Origin: Selenomonadaceae bacterium
Lineage (GTDB): Bacteria; Bacillota; Negativicutes; Selenomonadales; Selenomonadaceae
Length of the DNA: 64,000 nucleotides
Assembly (NCBI GenBank): GCA_017484005.1
Contig: JAFUTY010000004.1
Location: forward strand, 1-64,000
Direction of reading: 5' to 3'
Shown one piece after another: positions 13,597 through 27,226 of this stretch. A program made the translations under genes and the position numbers. Under the pieces are notes generated by a model. That model was not told where the DNA came from, searched no databases, and saw only the letters and a list, made by a program, of their open reading frames with translations. Within the stretch, counting starts at the first letter, position 1. Each line of letters begins with the position of its first letter.

Positions 13597-14786
13597 CTTA
13601 CAACGAGGCACTCGAATTTTTGGAATCCACTGCGATTTTTGGAATCAAGCCGGGACTCGAAAGAATCTCCCGGCTTCTCTTTTTGTTAAACGATCCGCAG
13701 AAAAAATTCCCTACATTACATGTGGCTGGAACAAACGGCAAGGGATCAGTCTGCGCGATGCTCGAATCAATCTGTCGCGAATCGAATCTCAAAACCGGAT
13801 TATTCACATCGCCGCATTTGACTAATTATCGCGAGCGAATTCGAATCAACGGCGAATTGATTTCCGAAGAAAAATTTGCAGATGGAATCAATCGGATCAA
13901 AAATTTAGGAGTCGATGCAACTCAATTCGAAATTCTGACAGCGTTGGCCTTTTTGATTTTCGCGGAGGAAAAAATCGATGTTGGAATTATCGAGGTTGGA
14001 TTGGGAGGAACTCTCGATTCGACAAATGTTATAATTCCAAAAGTTTCGATAATCACGAACATCGCGGAAGATCATGCTGATAAATGTATCGGCGAGCCTG
14101 GAGATTCTGTCATTGAAGGAATCGCGCGGCATAAATCTGGAATCATAAAATCGAAAATTCCAGTTGTGACAGCTGCTCAGGGCGACGCGTTGAAAATAAT
14201 TTCGAATCGAGCTAAAGATCTGGACGCTCCAATTTCGATTTATGGAAGGGATTTTCAGCCGATCGAATATGATTTGAATTTGCGCGGCGAGTATCAAATT
14301 GAAAATGCATCGGTAGCATCTGAAGCCGCTAGAATCTTTGGAATCTCAAAAGAATCTATTCAATTGGGATTGAAAAAAGCTCGATGGGCTGGTCGATTCG
14401 AGATTTTTAATTATAAAAATCGAATCGTGGTAATCGATGGCGCGCACAATCCCGCTGGAGCTCGAGCGTTGCGATTGAGTCTAGACAAAAATTTTCCAAA
14501 TCAGCGGCGAGTTTTTTTGATTGGAATTCTTCGAGACAAAAATTTTTCCGAGATGTTAGAGATTCTTCTTCGAAAATCAGATTCAGTTGTCGCGACGATG
14601 CCAGATTCTCCTCGCGCTGCATCGGCTGAAGAAATTGCAAACGCTGCATCGAGATTCGCAAATCGAGTCGAGATTGGAAATTTGAATCGCGCATTAGAAA
14701 TTTCAGACAGCGAATCGATTGTCGTGATTGCTGGCTCGCTATATTTGATTGGCAAAATTCGTGGTGAAATAACTCGTGAAAAGTAG
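13593..14786 (+). CDS. folC: folylpolyglutamate synthase / dihydrofolate synthase FolC
   Basis: Mur-ligase-fold enzyme of 397 residues that glutamylates folates (and often makes dihydrofolate from dihydropteroate). The P-loop [15 protein letters not shown] is near residues 42-56. [18 protein letters not shown] and DGAHNPAGA are family motifs. The valS-folC order with overlapping ends (ATGA) is common in Firmicutes. The downstream O-antigen-ligase gene begins inside its 3' end. Confidence 0.93.
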
Positions 14787-16392
14787 AATGGATGTTTTCA
14801 TTCGGCGGCAGCGAATTCAGTCGTGCAAAACGTGGATTGATAGAGCATTAATCGCCGAGGCATTTTTCATCGCAATTCTCCCGAATGCTGCAGTTATCGC
14901 TTTGATTCTCGGAATTTTTGCGTGGATCATTCGACTTCGTCTCGATCGAAAATTTACACTCCGACAGCTCCCGCTCGATTTTCCCGTCGCGCTGTTTGCA
15001 TTGATATCTTTCGCGTCAACATTCAACTCAACTTCGATTGGATTTTCGCTGCTGAGCTGGTTTGAAACAGTTGGATTCTACATCGCGACATATATTTTCT
15101 TTGGACAGAATCTGCGAACTCTCGATCAAATTAAAAATATATCGATCGCACTTTTTGCATCGGCAGGATTCGTCGTGCTATATTCAATCTATCAAATCTT
15201 TTTTGGACTCGATACGGCAGAACTTCCATGGCTCGATCCAAAAATTCAGCCGACTGCGCGAAATCGAATCTATTCAACGTGGACAAATCCAAATTTATTA
15301 GCCGGATATCTCGACGTCTGCATTTGTCTCGCAATTGGAATCATTGAAAACGCCAGCGATTGGATGAAACAGAGCATCTTCACGCTCGCAATAATCACAT
15401 TTGCAATTCTGCTGTCACTGACATTTTCTCGAGCGGCGATTTTGACATTCGCAATTATCTCGATTGTTTACGGATTAAAATTCGATCGAAGGTTAATCGC
15501 GCTGTTCGCAGTGATATCGATAGGAATTTTGTATTTTGAGCCGGGATTAGTCGAAAGACTGCTATCTTCCTTCGATTTTGACGACGATCAATCCTCAATC
15601 GCCCTCAGAGCATCACTTTGGCAATCGACGCTCCTCATGATTTCCGATCATCCATTTCTCGGAGTGGGCTGGGGATCTTATCGATTTGCGTTCGAGCCTT
15701 ACAATTTTTTACTGAATCAATCCCATTCGAGCGCAGAAATCTTCAATGCGAGCAATTTATATCTGAATTTTGCGGCGGAAATTGGAATCGCTGGAATGAT
15801 CTCGATTTTATGGTGCGTCGCTGAACCAATTATCATTGCATTTCGACTTGAATGGCTCGAGGAAAAAATTCAAGCATTTCGAATTCGAATTCAAACGTTT
15901 ATCAAAATCAAAGTGATGAAATTTTTTACTCCGCCCGATGAAAAAATTCCTGATCGTCCAAAAGTCGATTTGAAAAAACATCCAAAAATCGAGTCGAAGA
16001 TCGAAGATCAAATTGAAAAATCTCCCGAACAAAAAAAATCTCTCGAAGTTCAATCTTCCGATAAATCGTCCGATCAATCTCCGAGAGCAACAGTCATTTC
16101 ATTCGAGCAAAAACGTCATGAAAAAATTTCCGAGCAAATGAGTGAAGGATCAATTCGCGATCGATTGAAAACGAATTTGCGAATCGAGAATCTGTTTAAT
16201 TGGACAGAAACTGAATTATTCAATGGTTTACGATTAGGAATTGGATTAGCATTAATCTCAATCTTAATTAATGGATTTGCATATGATCTTCCGAGCAATT
16301 TTGCATCAGCAGTTTTTATTTGGATTCTGATTTCGATTCTAATTTGCGTAAATGAAATTGATTTCAGTGATGACATTGAATCTAAACTTTGA
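14776..16392 (+). CDS. O-antigen ligase (WaaL/Wzy_C)-family membrane protein with a long charged insert
   Basis: A 538-residue polytopic membrane protein with about ten hydrophobic segments and the Wzy_C signature HPFLGVGWGSY (about residues 290-300), typical of O-antigen ligases and polymerases that act at the periplasmic face of the inner membrane. About residues 375-475 form a lysine- and glutamate-rich, probably disordered insert (DLKKHPKIESKIEDQIEKSP), followed by two last membrane segments. Start is GTG 14776, or ATG 14788, overlapping folC. Ligase and polymerase cannot be separated from sequence alone; the neighbouring glycosyltransferases support an LPS role. Confidence 0.78.
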   Translation: MKSRMDVFIRRQRIQSCKTWIDRALIAEAFFIAILPNAAVIALILGIFAWIIRLRLDRKFTLRQLPLDFPVALFALISFASTFNSTSIGFSLLSWFETVGFYIATYIFFGQNLRTLDQIKNISIALFASAGFVVLYSIYQIFFGLDTAELPWLDPKIQPTARNRIYSTWTNPNLLAGYLDVCICLAIGIIENASDWMKQSIFTLAIITFAILLSLTFSRAAILTFAIISIVYGLKFDRRLIALFAVISIGILYFEPGLVERLLSSFDFDDDQSSIALRASLWQSTLLMISDHPFLGVGWGSYRFAFEPYNFLLNQSHSSAEIFNASNLYLNFAAEIGIAGMISILWCVAEPIIIAFRLEWLEEKIQAFRIRIQTFIKIKVMKFFTPPDEKIPDRPKVDLKKHPKIESKIEDQIEKSPEQKKSLEVQSSDKSSDQSPRATVISFEQKRHEKISEQMSEGSIRDRLKTNLRIENLFNWTETELFNGLRLGIGLALISILINGFAYDLPSNFASAVFIWILISILICVNEIDFSDDIESKL

Positions 16393-16441: not shown

Positions 16442-16469
16442 CTATCCAAAAATTTGTAGGAGGTCTTGT

Positions 16470-17737
16470 ATGATACACGTTTGCTATGGACTTCGCGACG
16501 AATCTGGAAATTACTCGAAACACACCGGCACATCAATTCAATCGCTTCTTGATAACACTAAGGAAGAAGTCACAATTCATCTGATCCATGATTCAACTCT
16601 CACGGATAAAAATCAGAATAAATTAGCTGGAATTGTCTACGACCACAATCAATCTGTTGAATTTTACAATGTGGAAAAGCTTGTGCCCAAACAAATCGAA
16701 TTTATTCAAAATAAAATTCCAAAGGCAATAAAATATTGGGCAACGATTGCAGGTTTTTATCGATGCCTAGTTTTAGATTTATTTCCACGCGAAATCGATC
16801 GAATGATTTATCTTGATTCCGATATCGTTGTTAATTTGGATATAAATGAAATGTGGCAAATCGATCTTAAAGGACGTCCTCTAGCTGCAATGCCACAAAC
16901 TCCTCCAGATGCAGAGCCAGCAAATTTTCAAAGGAATTTCGCAGTATGCAAGTCTGGAATCATTGATCCACACGATTATTTTAATTCCGGCGTTCTGATG
17001 ATGGATTTGAATTGGCTTCGTTCGCGGGGGGGGGGGGCATCTCCGCAGACAGTTTACTCAATCGTTGCGTAACTATTCTTGCAGAACATCCAGATTATAG
17101 TTATGTGGATCAGGATGCATTGAATGTATTTTTCGCAAATAACTTCGTCAAGTTGCCAGTGAAATTCAATACACCTGTACTTCGAGTTTTAAGAGATCCA
17201 AATTTCAAAATCGAAAAAGTAATTTATCACGCATGGGGATTAGTCCCTAAAGCGTTTCCAGATTTCAACAATCCTTATTATCAGCTTTGGTTCAAATATT
17301 TTTGCAGAACTCCATTTTTTAATATGGATTCGTTCGGCAATTTATGGAATTCATTCGAAGATATTTTCAATAAAACTCGAAATCTCGCGATAGATAGAAT
17401 CAACTTGCTACAGAAAATCTGCAAATTATCGGCGACTAGATCGCGCGTTTTCTGTACTATTCCAAAGGAAGTTGATAAGATTCGCGATTTGCTCGGTAAT
17501 GATTCTCGAGATATTTTCTTTGACGTTTCAAATTCCAAAGCATTCGAAATTTTGATTCAAGATGCACAACAGTTTTCTCAGAAACGATTTTATTGTCTTT
17601 TCATAGATGATAAGATCTGTAAGGATCTGCAGAAAAAATTGTCTGATCTGAAATTGGATTGTTTCAACATACGAATCCTCTTTGAAACGATTCCAGAACT
17701 GCAAAGTTTCAAAAATCAAATCAGTCAAAGTATATAG
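16470..17737 (+). CDS. family 8 glycosyltransferase 1, phase-variable, currently out of frame
   Basis: GT8-type enzyme (LPS galactosyl/glucosyltransferase family) that moves a sugar from a UDP-sugar onto a glycan acceptor. MIHVCYGLRDESGNYSKHTG begins the protein, and YLDSDIVVNLDI holds the DxD metal and nucleotide site near residue 116. A run of 12 G at 17026-17037 interrupts the frame after LRSR, and translation then ends at 17072. The rest (ISADSLLNR to SQSI at 17737) continues in another frame and aligns with gene 2. A run of 13 or 10 G would restore a full protein of about 420 residues. A TAGGAGG site supports the ATG at 16470. Confidence 0.85.
17026..17037 (+). repeat. poly-G tract (12 G) in glycosyltransferase 1
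   Basis: Twelve consecutive G inside the coding region, at the position that encodes four glycines in the in-frame paralogue. Tracts like this change length by slipped-strand mispairing. Twelve G puts this gene out of frame; 13 or 10 would put it in frame. Confidence 0.95.
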
Positions 17738-17747
17738 GAGGATTCAA

Positions 17748-18992
17748 ATGATACACGTTTGCTACGGATTGCGTGATGAATCCGGAAAATACTCAAAATT
17801 TGCCGGCACATCGATTCAATCACTTCTCGACAATACTTCCGAAGAAGTCACGATTCACATTCTCCACGATTCAACTTTGAGTGATGAAAATCGGCGTAAA
17901 TTGACAATTATCACGTATAAACACAATCAGAACATCAAATTCTATAACGTCGAAGAACTTGCGTCAGAAAGAATTGAGTTCGCGAAAAATCAAATCTCAA
18001 ATATCGGGAAATTTTGGGGAACAATTGGAGCTTTGTATCGCACAATGATTCCAGAATTTCTTGACGCAGATCGTGCAATTTATCTCGATACCGATGTCTT
18101 GGTGAATCTAAACATCAAGGATTTTTGGGACATTGATCTCAATGGTAAATCAATCGCGGTTGTTTCTGAGCATGAAAGCGGGGCATCCAGTGAAAGAAAT
18201 GCTTGCACATTTCCATTGTGTAAAATGAAGATTGTAGATCCAAAGAATTATTTCAATTCTGGAGTTTTGTTGATGGATTTGAGTCAACTCAGAAAACTCG
18301 GGGGGGGGGGGCACTCTCTTCTCGAAAGTTGCATAAGAATTCTCGCTGAACATCCAGATTTTCGATTCATGGATCAAGATGCTTTGAATTTTATTTTCAA
18401 AGATGATTGTGTGTTGCTTTCTGCAAAATTCAATCGTATCCTTCAACATATTAAAGAGGACAAGGTTGAGCGCGAAATTTATCATTTCTGTGGAGTCGCA
18501 CATAAACCAGTTCCTGATTTCAAAATTAAGCTGAATCGATTATGGTTTTCGTATTTCGTAAAAACGCCATTCTTCAATTCTCATTCGATCGAAAATTTTT
18601 ATAATGCATTCGAAAGTAGATTTAATGATACTCGTCGACGTGCGATGAATCGAATCGATTTATTGCAAAAAATTTGTAAATTGTCTGCGACTCATCTTCG
18701 TTCATTTTATACTGAGCCCCAAAATGTTGATAAAATTCAAAATCTGCTCGGTGAAAATCCGAATGATTTGTTTTTCAATGCGTCAAATCCCAAAGCGTTG
18801 GATGTTTTGATTCAAGATATCAAAGACTTTCCAGATAAGCGAATCTACCTTTTTTTCATCGATGACAAGCGTTATAGAGATCTGCAGGCAAAATTATCAG
18901 AACTGGGCGCACAATGTTTCAATATAAATTCGCTTTTTGATTCGTTGCCAGATTTGCGAAATTGGAAAAATTTAATCAGTAAAGGAATCTAA
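17748..18992 (+). CDS. family 8 glycosyltransferase 2, phase-variable, currently in frame
   Basis: A full-length 414-residue GT8 enzyme and close paralogue of gene 1: the same start (MIHVCYGLRDESGKYSKFAG), the DxD site in YLDTDVLVNLNI, then YFNSGVLLMDLSQLRKL, four glycines encoded by the G tract, and DFRFMDQDALNF. A C-terminal region of about 120 residues (from CKLSATHLR to the end, with YLFFIDDK) is shared by all three paralogues and looks like a separate small domain. An AGGAGG site lies 8 bases before ATG 17748. It probably transfers a hexose to LPS; the acceptor is unknown. Confidence 0.9.
   Translation: MIHVCYGLRDESGKYSKFAGTSIQSLLDNTSEEVTIHILHDSTLSDENRRKLTIITYKHNQNIKFYNVEELASERIEFAKNQISNIGKFWGTIGALYRTMIPEFLDADRAIYLDTDVLVNLNIKDFWDIDLNGKSIAVVSEHESGASSERNACTFPLCKMKIVDPKNYFNSGVLLMDLSQLRKLGGGGHSLLESCIRILAEHPDFRFMDQDALNFIFKDDCVLLSAKFNRILQHIKEDKVEREIYHFCGVAHKPVPDFKIKLNRLWFSYFVKTPFFNSHSIENFYNAFESRFNDTRRRAMNRIDLLQKICKLSATHLRSFYTEPQNVDKIQNLLGENPNDLFFNASNPKALDVLIQDIKDFPDKRIYLFFIDDKRYRDLQAKLSELGAQCFNINSLFDSLPDLRNWKNLISKGI
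18300..18311 (+). repeat. poly-G tract (12 G) in glycosyltransferase 2
   Basis: Twelve G in frame, read as four GGG codons between LRKL and HSLLES. Loss or gain of one or two G would truncate the enzyme, so this copy is in the ON state. Confidence 0.95.
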
Positions 18993-19010
18993 GAAATTTC
19001 CAAAAGAAGA

Positions 19011-19047
19011 AGATCCCTAGATCAAAAACGATCTGGGGATCTTTTTT
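19011..19047 (+). terminator. terminator after glycosyltransferase 2
   Basis: A 13-bp stem AGATCCCTAGATC with GATCTGGGGATCT (one G-U pair), loop AAAAAC, followed by six T. It lies between the convergent glycosyltransferases 2 and 3. Confidence 0.9.
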
Positions 19048-19056
19048 GGTTCGGAT

Positions 19057-20291
19057 TTACATTGCGTTAGTCAAATCAACGTGGAATTTTTTGATTTCTG
19101 CATCATCTCTCAAAAAGATCATTGCGTTGCAGAAATCTGTATTCTCGACAAATCCCTCTTTGCGAAGTCGATCGCGGATTTGATTGTAATTCTGCATTAG
19201 GATGAATATGAAACTTTTTCCCTTGGATTGTTTCAACTTCTCAAAAAGAGGATCAATCAATTCTGAATCTGCAACACAAAGGATTTCTTCAGATTTTGCA
19301 TCGAACGAATTTTGTATCAAGTCAAGATCTTTCGATTGAGTTACAAACATTCGATTTTTGTGCGCTAGTTGATTTGCAATTTGTCTCGAAAGCGATTGAA
19401 AATCCTCGAAATGTTTTCTAGCACCTGCGATAAGATTCGAAAGAGATTCCGCATCGAAGAATGGAGTTTTCATCAGATATTCGAGAAAAAGTTGATGCAA
19501 TTTATTCGATGGATCAAAACTGTAATTGTGCCCAGCTTGATGGTAAATTATTTTTTCGAGCAATTTGATTCGATCGCGTTGTATATATCGAGTGAAAGTG
19601 TTATATCGATTTGGAAGACTTACATGATTCTTCGCATAAAGAAAATTCAATGAAACTTGATCGAGTAAAGTTGCTCCGGGATTTTTGTGAAGAAATTCGA
19701 TTTGCGATTCAAGAAAGTTGCCCCCCCCCCCCGTGAACGAACTTGTTGTAAATCCATCACGAGAATTCCACAGTTGAAATATTCGGTATTAGTAGCGATT
19801 CCGTTTTTTACAACATATTGATTCGCTAGACTTCCAATTTTATTTCCACCATTGATTAATCCTTCAGGAACGGCAGCGATCGGTTTATTTTCAAGATTCA
19901 ATGTCCAAAGTTCATTTAAATCGAGATTTACAATCGTATCTGAATCGATATAAATTGCACGATCGATTTCAGTCGATAATAATTCAGGAATAAATAATCG
20001 ATAAATCGTTCCAATCGTTAGAAAACTTGTTGAAGTCCATGGAAGTTGCTCGCGAATCCATTGAAGTTTTTCAGGCTTGAGTGTTTCGAGATTGTAAAAC
20101 TGAATCTGTTGTCGATAATTTTCTGCAAGCTCGATAAATTTTTCGCGATTCGATTCAGTCAGCGTATTATCATGAATCAAATGAATCGTGACTTTGGATT
20201 TTGTATTTTCAAAAATCGAGCAAATCGATGCACCGGCGAATTTCGAATATTTTCCAGAACCATCGATGAATCCAAAACAAACATGAATCAT
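19057..20291 (-). CDS. family 8 glycosyltransferase 3, phase-variable, currently out of frame
   Basis: The third GT8 paralogue, on the opposite strand and last in the run mod-tsaB-rimI. ATG 20291 follows an AGGAGTG site and gives MIHVCFGFIDGSGKYSKFAG. The DxD site is in YIDSDTIVNLDL. Translation passes the 12-G tract (19721-19732 on the plus strand as C) and ends at 19647 with a nonsense tail. The other frame continues NFLESQIEFLHKNPG and LDQVSLNFLYAKN to the true end at 19057. A run of 13 or 10 G restores RGGGG-NFLES in frame, exactly as in gene 1. The C-terminal shared domain (FIFILMQNY) is present. Confidence 0.85.
19721..19732 (-). repeat. poly-G tract (12 G on minus strand) in glycosyltransferase 3
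   Basis: Twelve C on the plus strand, equal to twelve G in the coding sense of the minus-strand gene, at the same codon position as in the other two paralogues. In this length state the gene is OFF. Confidence 0.95.
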
Positions 20292-20301
20292 GCAATCACT
20301 C

Positions 20302-20748
20302 CTAAATCTTAGTCTTCCACATGATAATTGCATCCTCGTTATTGTCAACATAATATCGCGGACGCCTTCCAACATTTCGAAATCCAAATTTTTCATAAAG
20401 ATGAATCGCCGAAAGATTTGACGGTCTAACTTCCAGAGTCATTGCTGTAACTCCCAAGGAATTTTTGACGATCGATTCAAATTCCTTGAGCATCAATTCA
20501 CCAATTCCGCGGCGTCTGAAATCTGGATCGACGGCGATATTTGTGATTTGAGCCTCGCCTTGAACAATCCATGAACCGATATATCCAACGATTTTTTGAT
20601 CGATCGTCGCGACGAAATAGAATGTATTTTCATTCAAACACTCCTCGAAAAATGCTCGGCGATCCCATGGCATTGAAAAAGATCGCGACTCGATTTCTGC
20701 AACTTCATCGGCATCTTCGGGAGTCATTTCACGAAATTCAAGATTCAT
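20302..20748 (-). CDS. rimI: ribosomal-protein-alanine N-acetyltransferase RimI
   Basis: A 148-residue GNAT-fold acetyltransferase. SFSMPWDRRAFFEE, ITNIAVDPDFRRRGIGELML (acetyl-CoA loop RRRGIG) and LEVRPSNLSAIHLYEKFGF are the classic RimI motifs. It acetylates the N-terminus of ribosomal protein S18 in E. coli. It overlaps the end of tsaB by 11 bases, a common arrangement in Firmicutes. Confidence 0.93.
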   Translation of the reverse strand: MNLEFREMTPEDADEVAEIESRSFSMPWDRRAFFEECLNENTFYFVATIDQKIVGYIGSWIVQGEAQITNIAVDPDFRRRGIGELMLKEFESIVKNSLGVTAMTLEVRPSNLSAIHLYEKFGFRNVGRRPRYYVDNNEDAIIMWKTKI

Positions 20749-21439
20749 GTTTTCTCCTATCGAATAATTCTTCCGCCTCAGATCGACGAAGATAAAGAGG
20801 CTCGAGATTCATGACTGAATCGATTTTCCCCGCGTCGAATCGAATTCTTCCAGCGATCGCAGCGCATGCAGCTCTCGGCATTCGAAGATGAATCGGCGCG
20901 ATTGATACATTTGAAGGCAGATCGATTTTCCCAAGAATTTTTTTCTCGATAATATCTCCCTGCAGAATGATTGATCGATCAGTTTTTTCCGCCCGATCGA
21001 GAATTTCTTTGATTGGAAGAATTTTGATTTCATCGATCAATTTTGGAAATCCTTGAGCTGCATCGAATTTTCCGAGATATGCAGAATTTTTTTGAGCATC
21101 GATTAACTGCCAAAGTTCAGAATCTGTTTTGAAAAAATGGAATGCCAATGTTTCAGTCGTCGGAATTCCCAAGATTGGAATTTTCCATGCATATGCAAGC
21201 GATTTAGCCGTCGCAAGTCCAATTCGAAGTCCAGTAAAAGATCCTGGACCAATACTGACAGCGATCGCTTTGAGATTTTCGCGATTGACTTCAGTGATTT
21301 TGAAAAGCTGCGCGATGTTTTCGATAAGCGTTGCGGAATGTGAAAATCGAGTATGAATTGAGATTTCGCCCAAAACTCTCGATTCAGATACAATTGCGAC
21401 GCTTGAAACCTGCGACGATGTTTCGATTCCTAAAATCAT
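20738..21439 (-). CDS. tsaB: tRNA threonylcarbamoyladenosine biosynthesis protein TsaB
   Basis: A 233-residue protein of the ASKHA fold. LGIETSSQVSSVAI at the start and SIGPGSFTGLRIGLATAKSLA near residue 65 are the TsaB signature. It is the scaffold partner of TsaD in making the t6A modification of ANN-reading tRNAs. Start ATG 21439 has a GAGGTG site. It lies between the Mod methyltransferase (10 bases upstream) and rimI. Confidence 0.94.
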   Translation of the reverse strand: MILGIETSSQVSSVAIVSESRVLGEISIHTRFSHSATLIENIAQLFKITEVNRENLKAIAVSIGPGSFTGLRIGLATAKSLAYAWKIPILGIPTTETLAFHFFKTDSELWQLIDAQKNSAYLGKFDAAQGFPKLIDEIKILPIKEILDRAEKTDRSIILQGDIIEKKILGKIDLPSNVSIAPIHLRMPRAACAAIAGRIRFDAGKIDSVMNLEPLYLRRSEAEELFDRRKHES

Positions 21440-21448
21440 GACTTCACC

Positions 21449-23254
21449 TCAAATCACTTTGAATCTTGTATTTGGCGAATGGAGTTTGAAAATTTCTCGA
21501 GAATTGATTTTGTCTGAATCGCTCGAAAAACTTTCATCTCTAAAGACTACTCGATTTGGATTTTTCGACGCAATATATTCAATTACACTCTTTGAAATAT
21601 TTTTATCAAAACAGGCGATCAAATCTCCAGCGTTGTAATTCAGAATCGTTGATCCCTCGAATTCTTCCAATTCTAATTTCAAATTCAGCTCGATTCCCCA
21701 ATCAATCAAGCATTCGAAAAGCAAATCGAGAGGAGATCGATCCGATTTTATATTTTCAATCAGATCAAACAATTTCTCTCGAGTCAATTCTTCAGGTGAA
21801 ATTGAAACATCGCGAAAATTTGTAGAATCCAATTTCAAAACTCTAAATCCTCGATCTATATTTTGAAATTTAGATCCTGCGCGTCGAATTCTTTCCTTTC
21901 CGATCTCACAGATTGTTTTGAATCCAGATTTAAACGCCTCGGAATTTTCTGGACAGATCTCGGGCAATTGAACCATGATCCATTTTCGATTTCCATGATC
22001 TTCAGAGTTTAATTGCATAACTGCATGAGCTGTTGTCGCTGATCCACTGAAAAAATCTAAAACGATCGAATCTGGATTTGTTGTAAGCTGAAGTATCTTT
22101 CGAATTAATCGAGTAGGTTTTGGTGTATCGAACGGAGCTTCAGGAATCATTTCCTTGACTTGCATTTTTGCTTCATGATTGTCACCGACTTCTTCTCGAA
22201 ACCAGATCGTTTTTGAGACACTTCCTTGTTTCACATCGGTTAGAAATTTTTTAGCCTGCGGAACACCATTTCCATCTTTTCCAAACCAAATTCGATTATC
22301 TTCATACATCTTCAACATGGTTTCATCGGAATATCGACGATATGTTCCCGCTGGAGGAGACCATGTCACTCCATTTGGAAAAGTAAAACTTGCAGTGCTC
22401 GTTCCACTTTTTGCTTGCAACGTATTTAATTTCCATGCGCCTCGAGGATCGTTATCTGGATTTTTGTATCGAGAATCCATCTCTTGAGTTCTCGGGAGTA
22501 GATTCGGTCGCCAGATCGTTTTGTCTTTTACATAGACGAGGATGAAATCATGAGTATCGGAGAGATATTTTGCATCGTTTTGAGGAGCATATTTTTTCTC
22601 CCAGATCACATTGCATACAAAATTTCTCTCGCCAAAAACTTCATCACAAATCTTTTTCAAATTCGACTGCTCATTATCATCAATCGAGATAAAGATCGCG
22701 CCGTCATCACTCAATAAATTTCTGGCGAGCAATAATCGAGAATAGATCATTGAACACCAATCTGAATGAAATCGAGGATTCGAATCTGAATTCTCAACAA
22801 ATTTTCGATTTCCATTTTCATCAAACAAATCAACTCGATCTGCATATTCCGCTGAATCCATTTCGAATCGATCTTTGTAAATAAAATCATGTCCAGTATT
22901 ATATGGAGGATCGATGTAAATCAATTTGATCTTTTTGAAGTAACTCTGCTGAAGGAGTTTCAAAACATCGAGATTATCTCCCTCGATGTAAAGATTCTCT
23001 GTCGAATCGAAATTCAAACTCGAATCGAGATCTGGACGCAAAGTTTTATCGATCTTTCGATAAGCCTCGATTCTTGCCGAATTTTTTCCAACCCAATCAA
23101 ATCGATAAGCTTCCGGCTCATCAGAAATTTCATCGCCGAGAATCTGTCTCAAAACATCAAAATCGATCGAATGTTTTAGATTTCCATGCGAATCTCTAGA
23201 TTCAGTGACACATTCCGGAAACATTTTCATGAGTTCTTCGATTTTTGAATCCAT
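21449..23254 (-). CDS. orphan type III Mod-like adenine-specific DNA methyltransferase
   Basis: A 601-residue beta-class N6-adenine methyltransferase. Motif IV is DPPYNTG (near residue 124), the S-adenosylmethionine motif I is FFSGSATTAHA (near residue 397), and the target-recognition region lies between them. Length and layout match Mod subunits of type III systems. No Res helicase-nuclease gene is adjacent: tsaB follows after 10 bases and a terminator precedes it. It therefore looks like a solitary methyltransferase in a housekeeping run. A GGAGG site supports ATG 23254. No simple repeat that would make it phase-variable is visible. Confidence 0.85.
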   Translation of the reverse strand: MDSKIEELMKMFPECVTESRDSHGNLKHSIDFDVLRQILGDEISDEPEAYRFDWVGKNSARIEAYRKIDKTLRPDLDSSLNFDSTENLYIEGDNLDVLKLLQQSYFKKIKLIYIDPPYNTGHDFIYKDRFEMDSAEYADRVDLFDENGNRKFVENSDSNPRFHSDWCSMIYSRLLLARNLLSDDGAIFISIDDNEQSNLKKICDEVFGERNFVCNVIWEKKYAPQNDAKYLSDTHDFILVYVKDKTIWRPNLLPRTQEMDSRYKNPDNDPRGAWKLNTLQAKSGTSTASFTFPNGVTWSPPAGTYRRYSDETMLKMYEDNRIWFGKDGNGVPQAKKFLTDVKQGSVSKTIWFREEVGDNHEAKMQVKEMIPEAPFDTPKPTRLIRKILQLTTNPDSIVLDFFSGSATTAHAVMQLNSEDHGNRKWIMVQLPEICPENSEAFKSGFKTICEIGKERIRRAGSKFQNIDRGFRVLKLDSTNFRDVSISPEELTREKLFDLIENIKSDRSPLDLLFECLIDWGIELNLKLELEEFEGSTILNYNAGDLIACFDKNISKSVIEYIASKNPNRVVFRDESFSSDSDKINSREIFKLHSPNTRFKVI

Positions 23255-23300
23255 GTAAAAACCTCCAAATTTTTTATAAAAGGATATCACAAATAAAAAA

Positions 23301-26309: not shown

Positions 26310-26384
26310 ATGGCTCGAAAGTATGAGCAGCTCGCCGCGGATATTGTTAAAAATGTCGGCGGAAAGGAAAGCGGTATTTCATGA
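26310..26384 (+). pseudogene. 5' stub of a beta-glucoside-type PTS EIIBCA gene
   Basis: After an AAAGGAG site, ATG 26310 begins MARKYEQLAADIVKNVGGKE, the N-terminus of PTS EIIB of the beta-glucoside/sucrose type. Homology ends there, and the frame closes four codons later at a TGA that overlaps the ATG of the endonuclease. The stub may now serve only as a leader coupling translation to the endonuclease. Confidence 0.8.
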
Positions 26385-27226
26385 TTATTTACGTCATTAT
26401 AAATACAATCAACGGAAAAATTTACATTGGACAGACGACGCGATCTCTTAGTGAAAGAATTTCGGAACATATCAGTAACAAGAAGACTCTCATTGGACGA
26501 GCAATTCAGAAATACGGCTGGACAAATTTTAGCGTCAAAGTTATCGAAGTGTGCGATACCATTGAGCAGCTTAACGAACGCGAAAAATTTTGGATTGCGA
26601 AATATGATTCCATTGTACCGAACGGCTACAACTTGACTGAAGGCGGCAATAATGGAACTCATTCAGCCGATGTGTGCGCCAGATTATCTGCAGCGAATAC
26701 AGGTAAAAAACTTTCAGCAGAGACTTGTAAAAAGATTTCCGAAGCGAAAAAAGGAACTCATCTATCTAAAGAGACTCGTGCAAAAATGTCTGCAATGCGC
26801 AAAGGAAAATCAAAAAGTAATGAGACACGAGCAAGAATGAAATTGGCGCAGACAAAAAATCGAAAAGTGGTTTACTGCATTGAAACGAGACAAACTTTTG
26901 AATCGATTAAGGCTGCAGCTGAAAGTTATGGAATACGAAGCGGCGAAATCAGTTCTGTATGCAACGGCAAAAGAAATACTGCCGGCGGCTTACATTGGGC
27001 TTTTTTGAAAGATTGGTTGACTGCAGACGACAAAACACAAACTGAATTATCGGCAAAACCTTCGCATCGCAGAAAACGCGTTCGCTGCATGGAAACTGGC
27101 GAGGTTTTTCTGTCAACTCGTGCGGCTGCAGAAAAATATAAAACCGATCATAAAAATATTGCCCGTGCTTGCAAAAATTCAACAAGAACCGCAGTAGGAA
27201 TGCATTGGAAATTTCTTGTCGACTGA
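26381..27226 (+). CDS. GIY-YIG homing-type endonuclease with NUMOD DNA-binding motifs
   Basis: A 281-residue mobile endonuclease. Residues 2-90 are a GIY-YIG nuclease domain (IIYVIINTINGKIYIGQTT, the arginine in SLSERISEH, the glutamate-rich EQLNEREKFWIAKY). Residues about 95-155 hold repeated NUMOD3-like motifs (SAETCKKISEAKKG, SKETRAKMSAMRKG, SNETRARMKLAQ). Two NUMOD1/IENR1-like helix-turn-helix units follow (about 165-220 and 232-280: FESIKAAAESYGI and FLSTRAAAEKYKT). Such enzymes cut a target allele and spread by repair. It lies exactly between the two ends of a PTS gene. Confidence 0.9.
   Translation: MIIYVIINTINGKIYIGQTTRSLSERISEHISNKKTLIGRAIQKYGWTNFSVKVIEVCDTIEQLNEREKFWIAKYDSIVPNGYNLTEGGNNGTHSADVCARLSAANTGKKLSAETCKKISEAKKGTHLSKETRAKMSAMRKGKSKSNETRARMKLAQTKNRKVVYCIETRQTFESIKAAAESYGIRSGEISSVCNGKRNTAGGLHWAFLKDWLTADDKTQTELSAKPSHRRKRVRCMETGEVFLSTRAAAEKYKTDHKNIARACKNSTRTAVGMHWKFLVD

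Follow-up and report, generated by a model that had tools for sequence, protein, structure and literature searches.

Poly-G phase variation has been described in Neisseria for lgtA, lgtD and lgtC, the last of which encodes a GT8 α-1,4-galactosyltransferase (PMC6400993). Neisseria genomes carry a mean of 15–19 poly-G tracts, and up to 90 phase-variable genes, all repeat types included, were counted in one N. lactamica (PMC5953494). In Campylobacter jejuni, strain 11168 has 29 poly-G/C tracts of at least seven nucleotides (PMC4965091), and the median is about 20 phase-variable tracts per genome (PMC6321876). Nothing on poly-G phase variation or a phasome in Selenomonas, Negativicutes or rumen bacteria was found in the open-licence literature.

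The Selenomonadaceae genome considered here is probably that of a gut or rumen commensal. Three of its GT8 glycosyltransferase genes (genes 1–3) lie together in the window, the 64-kb stretch of DNA that was analysed as a whole, and each has a G12 tract. With a probability of about 0.88, these genes are poly-G slipped-strand contingency loci and belong to a phasome that spans the genome with about 90 tracts. Gonococcal lgtC, which likewise encodes a GT8 enzyme and has a poly-G tract, is the nearest precedent (PMC6400993). Enzyme family, fold and the coding poly-G are common to both, as frame switching by slippage would be. Unlike in lgtC, the tract is located mid-gene, in a loop between two helices, is read as a glycine stretch when the gene is ON, and recurs in seven paralogues, in a different phylum.

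Slipped-strand mispairing in G12 would add or remove single Gs, each change shifting the downstream frame of the LgtC-like enzyme and toggling it between a whole (ON) and a truncated (OFF) form. Each of the three genes would switch separately, the assembled state being OFF, ON, OFF, and may thereby give the up to eight surface combinations of the original prediction. With about 90 such tracts, most of them inside surface-related coding sequences and others in the spacers of promoters, a clonal population would turn into a mixture of surface types. That tract lengths switch in cells is suggested by the tract positions, the reading frames, the paralogy, the conserved halves, the excess and lengths of the tracts, and their placement in promoters.

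Three G12 tracts in the window

A run scan of the whole window found just three G/C runs of at least eight nucleotides, each of length 12, against an expectation of 0.05 per 64 kb; when the window was simulated with order-1 and order-3 Markov models, the longest run averaged about 6. The tracts exceed chance homopolymer length and, according to frame analysis, sit where length changes alter the reading frame. The features of the locus are:

14776–16392, plus strand: Wzy_C-domain (O-antigen-ligase-like) membrane protein, upstream of gene 1 (PF04932, 71 bits, cut-off 31.7)
16458–16463, plus strand: ribosome-binding site AGGAGG of gene 1 (sequence)
16470–17737, plus strand: gene 1, GT8 glycosyltransferase, out of frame (OFF); N-terminal half PF01501, 97 bits; frames differ by 2 across the tract
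17026–17037, plus strand: G12 tract of gene 1 (run scan)
17736–17741, plus strand: ribosome-binding site AGGAGG of gene 2 (sequence)
17748–18992, plus strand: gene 2, GT8 glycosyltransferase, in frame (ON); PF01501, 113.7 bits; LgtC-like sequence and fold
18300–18311, plus strand: G12 tract of gene 2, codons of Gly185–188 (run scan, structure model)
19010–19047, no strand assigned: inverted repeat with a T-run, resembling a terminator, in the gap between convergent genes 2 and 3 (sequence, by eye)
19057–20291, minus strand: gene 3, GT8 glycosyltransferase, out of frame (OFF); N-terminal half PF01501, 94.5 bits; frames differ by 2
19721–19732, minus strand: G12 tract of gene 3, C12 on the plus strand (run scan)
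20302–20748, minus strand: RimI-like GNAT acetyltransferase, upstream of gene 3 (PF00583)
20738–21439, minus strand: TsaB-like protein (PF00814)

Gene 3 is the last gene after tsaB-rimI. In gene 2, a single open frame of 414 aa crosses the tract and reads KLGGGGH there, which bears out the original prediction that G12 encodes four glycines in a whole protein. Genes 1 and 3 differ: the frame entering the tract ends shortly past it, and the remaining half stays open in another frame, over 232 codons in gene 1 and 220 in gene 3. The in-frame tract length is n = 1 mod 3 in genes 1 and 3 and n = 0 mod 3 in gene 2; the predicted states OFF, ON, OFF and the restoration of genes 1 and 3 by 13 or 10 Gs are arithmetically correct, though each length, and with it each ON/OFF call, may be off by one, as an assembled length can be a consensus or an error. 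The restored junction aligns with that of gene 2, as had been claimed; over the whole C-terminal half the agreement is looser, with the paralogues 23–55% identical.

GT8 family, fold and the tract site

PF01501 (GT8) matches the N-terminal halves of genes 1, 2 and 3, and in gene 2 the match covers residues 14–254, on both sides of the tract. PF01501 scores over the gathering threshold and a DxD motif (YLDTD, residues 112–116, with D114 and D116 invariant) place the proteins in GT8. Gene 2 resembles LgtC by sequence, and its structure model (mean pLDDT 82.7) has an LgtC-like GT-A fold, with TM-scores by target of 0.75–0.77 against 1g9r and 1ss9 (Foldseek). The score against NF011718 (LPS 3-alpha-galactosyltransferase) is 56 bits, below the cut-off of 461 bits, a resemblance at the superfamily level only. 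In the model of gene 2, residues 185–188 belong to a loop between helices 178–184 and 191–201. A DQD motif, aligned with that of LgtC, lies downstream of the tract, so that the OFF product would be without part of the active site. Removal of these residues points to loss of function in the OFF state; a truncated half or transcriptional slippage could keep some activity.

A conserved DLxxLR segment directly precedes the tract in every tract-bearing paralogue; together with the run scan and the PF01501 matches, this position agrees with the earlier claim of three GT8 paralogues with G12 at a common site. The genome has more than 20 GT8 matches, with tandem arrays on contigs 13 and 16 (C13 and C16), and the tract is found at the one site in seven GT8 genes, three in the window, three in the array on C16 and one on C13. 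Such numbers and arrays would suit silent cassettes for gene conversion, in which the tract would be a recombination aid. However, identity among the paralogues with a tract does not exceed 63% in the N-terminal half and 55% in the C-terminal half, too low for recent conversion, and every one of these genes has its own full frame; the cassette explanation is highly improbable. A GT8 gene at G000:C41:8955–9487 is cut by a contig end just before the expected tract position; four other contig ends likewise adjoin tracts.

In other-species homologues within the genus, the site is a short loop with a longest G run of 4, as seen in 28 homologues in which it was located; a further 25 did not match the site-finding motif and were left out of this comparison. 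A pattern search of 189 genomes, one per species, which needs the LR motif and therefore misses variants, found the GT8 tract at this site only in the own genome and once in another genus, and in none of the 65 other genomes of the genus. The nearest named GT8 loci in a contig search are distant (about 33% identity), and three of them come from rumen or reticulum Selenomonadaceae MAGs.

Reading frames beyond the tract

Genes 1 and 3 are both out of frame in the assembly, and a GT8 paralogue on C13 has an in-frame TGA, so decay occurs in some family members. Genes 1 and 3 could on these grounds be ordinary frameshifted pseudogenes in which the tract is a neutral scar. Against this, the C-terminal halves of OFF genes hold zero stops in 220–232 codons (232 and 220 past the tracts of genes 1 and 3), compared with 5–24 stops in the other frames. 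Divergence in these halves is highest at codon position 3, amounting to 0.33/0.25/0.52 at the three positions between gene 1 and the C13 gene, both of which are OFF. The OFF halves evolve as coding sequence, and both halves are open and under coding constraint. Moreover, the frameshift coincides with the tract every time, and roughly a third of the coding tracts are read in frame. Of 42 tracts flanked on each side by 100 or more open codons, 12 are ON, with 11 in one OFF frame and 19 in the other (P = 0.26 for departure from equal shares). There is little chance that genes 1 and 3 are plain pseudogenes. An ON fraction near the neutral expectation is also seen in Campylobacter, there in a large set of isolates.

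Long homopolymers are able to slip during transcription. A stable tract could thereby, or by ribosomal frameshifting, give constant low-level full-length enzyme with no genetic switching, which would also account for the intact OFF halves. Such expression leaves the frame states near one third and the tracts in promoter spacers unexplained, and DNA slippage at poly-G is documented in other bacteria (PMC6400993; PMC5953494); a stable tract of this kind is very unlikely, and slipped-strand switching is retained as the preferred reading.

A genome-wide set of tracts

The own genome has 90 G/C runs of at least eight nucleotides, 86 of them at least ten long. The original prediction undersized the phenomenon, as the tracts of the window are three of about 90. 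In the 571 kb of the genome fetched around tracts, there are 375 runs of 4, 56 of 5, 9 of 6 and 1 of 7, then 18 of 11, 36 of 12 and 18 of 13. The distribution is bimodal, with a geometric fall to the single run of 7, followed by a sharp peak at 12. Loss of mismatch repair as the cause of the excess was ruled out, as MutS1 (991 bits, full length) and MutL are intact; there is thus no general hypermutability by repair loss, and the genome is not an obvious mutator.

With 86 runs of at least ten, the genome ranks first among 189 genomes of the family, followed by genomes with 42, 32, 29, 27 and 26, all of the same genus, and most other genera have 0–3; the ranking is approximate, since the relatives are mostly draft or incomplete and tracts may break contigs. 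The majority of the genomes of the genus carry some poly-G tracts. A different repeat arrangement is found in another genus, where 15 G runs of at least ten lie within about 1.1 kb (G046:C9:3589–4675).

Pfam families at the tract loci include GT8, GT2, GT11, group-1 glycosyltransferases, DUF4422, WcbI, FkbM and other methyltransferases, hexapeptide transferases, TupA-like ATP-grasp, WbqC, TonB-dependent receptors, flagellin, radical SAM enzymes and a type ISP restriction-modification enzyme. By these predicted families, the tract-bearing genes are mostly of surface-glycan type. Four TonB-dependent receptor genes have a tract near the N-terminus (L062:3668, L063:13722, L069:3821 and L074:3488), one identified by Pfam scan and three by clustering with that one. 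An in-frame G10 tract lies inside the type ISP restriction-modification enzyme (L103:834–843), a possible phase-variable restriction system. Two tracts are interrupted, G11-T-G7 at L057:3853 and G9-T-G5 at L087:3465, and may be locked or decaying loci.

Like the Campylobacter phasome, this set is dominated by poly-G, involves surface-modification genes and has both coding and intergenic members. In contrast to it, the tracts are 3–4 times more numerous, their modal length is 12 and not 9, MutS1 and MutL are present, and the host is a probable Gram-negative Firmicute relative. With the Neisseria phasome it shares its large size, its many loci and its occurrence also in a commensal, whereas the nearly 90 tracts here are poly-G alone.

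The mechanism is of a known type, and the interest lies in the boundary bases of the tracts and in the size of the phasome, about 90 tracts being an unusually large switch set for a probable gut commensal. As the host is probably a rumen commensal and the genus is mostly tract-bearing, the question of what drives phasome size becomes testable outside pathogens; possible drivers are phage pressure, protozoal grazing or host antibody.

Tracts in promoter spacers

Meningococcal porA undergoes promoter-spacer phase variation through a poly-G spacer. The own genome has 12 tracts placed in the same way, each preceded by a -35 box (TTGAYN) and followed by a -10 box (TAnnnT), compared with 99 of 200000 random positions (P = 6e-26). 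Their positions in the own genome are:

First six: L053:3476, L055:3445, L080:3585, L083:14029, L084:3511, L090:3419
Last six: L098:13083, L099:3332, L101:5344, L106:3381, L107:7362, L108:3283

Several of the 12 directly follow a terminator hairpin. Spacers in this promoter-like set vary widely, the clearest cases being 14–22 and three of them 16–17, as expected for spacing-controlled promoters; the tracts probably switch transcription through spacer length. Unlike in the porA type, the spacer class coexists here with a frame-switching class, and none of the three window genes belongs to it.

Homopolymers are error-prone, and four contig ends are found some 30 nt or less from a tract where 0.16 would be expected (P = 2e-5), a sign of assembly trouble there. 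Contig ends at tracts fit heterogeneous lengths and also sequencing failure at poly-G. The tracts could on this account be artefacts of the assembly or sequencing, with wrong homopolymer lengths or poly-G read errors. Against this, the tracts lie in contig interiors, recur at a single homologous position in seven genes and also occupy promoter spacers whose -35 and -10 boxes are correct; an artefact is very improbable. Support for the contingency-locus reading, put forward in the original prediction for three genes, comes from the bimodal run lengths, the seven paralogues, the frame thirds, the stop-free OFF halves, the promoter-spacer tracts and the surface-glycan gene types.

Boundary bases of the tracts

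Tallied on the 63 tracts left when homologous tracts were cut to one per family, the own-genome tracts are followed by C in 81% of cases and preceded by C in 73% (pattern C|G12|CA). In G runs of 4–7 of the same genome, the next base is C in 25%, and long and short runs differ after the run (Fisher P = 5e-18) and before it (P = 2e-7). Three relatives have patterns of their own, in tract sets (L226–L283) that include homologous genes and were not reduced: G094 has A|Gn|TA in 33 of the 33 tracts examined, 28 of them exactly G10; in G087, T precedes 13 of 15 tracts (T|G10); and in G065 the base after the tract is mostly C, then A (N|G12|CA). Lengths of 6–9 are nearly absent in all four genomes. 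The boundary bases of long tracts are species-specific, unlike those of short G runs of the same genome.

For the origin of such tract loci, just general possibilities have been proposed so far (PMC6321876). Threshold-dependent slippage can remove intermediate lengths, yet it does not predict species-specific boundaries. Instead of growing from short runs, the tracts of the genus might have been put in place at almost their full length, by a lineage-specific process whose mark would be the species-specific boundary bases; this proposal is tentative and, on balance, unlikely. If it were true, such placement would amount to an active way of creating contingency loci. The boundaries offer a direct handle on the origin of such loci. 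Tract-free orthologous sites were sought in the relative G081, picked for its 91% match at the ligase gene, and none of 25 joined-flank queries found an orthologue there; the two matches were fragments, about 33 nt long, of a single promoter region.

Acceptor glycan and neighbouring genes

In an NCBIfam profile search, neither the GT8 proteins nor the Wzy_C neighbour reached any equivalog cut-off, which leaves LPS, another polysaccharide and flagellin as candidate acceptors. A ligase role of the neighbour is suggested at the domain level only. LpxC was found in the own genome; the cell therefore probably makes lipid A, and a role in LPS is possible. LPS or another surface glycan is a candidate target of the GT8 enzymes. 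Two other genes of the window were noted. An adenine DNA methyltransferase-like protein (21449–23290, minus strand), below NCBIfam cut-offs and without a tract, adjoins tsaB and groEL. An ORF at 26381–27226 on the plus strand, which starts MIIYVIINTINGKIYIGQT, appears by eye to be GIY-YIG homing endonuclease-like.
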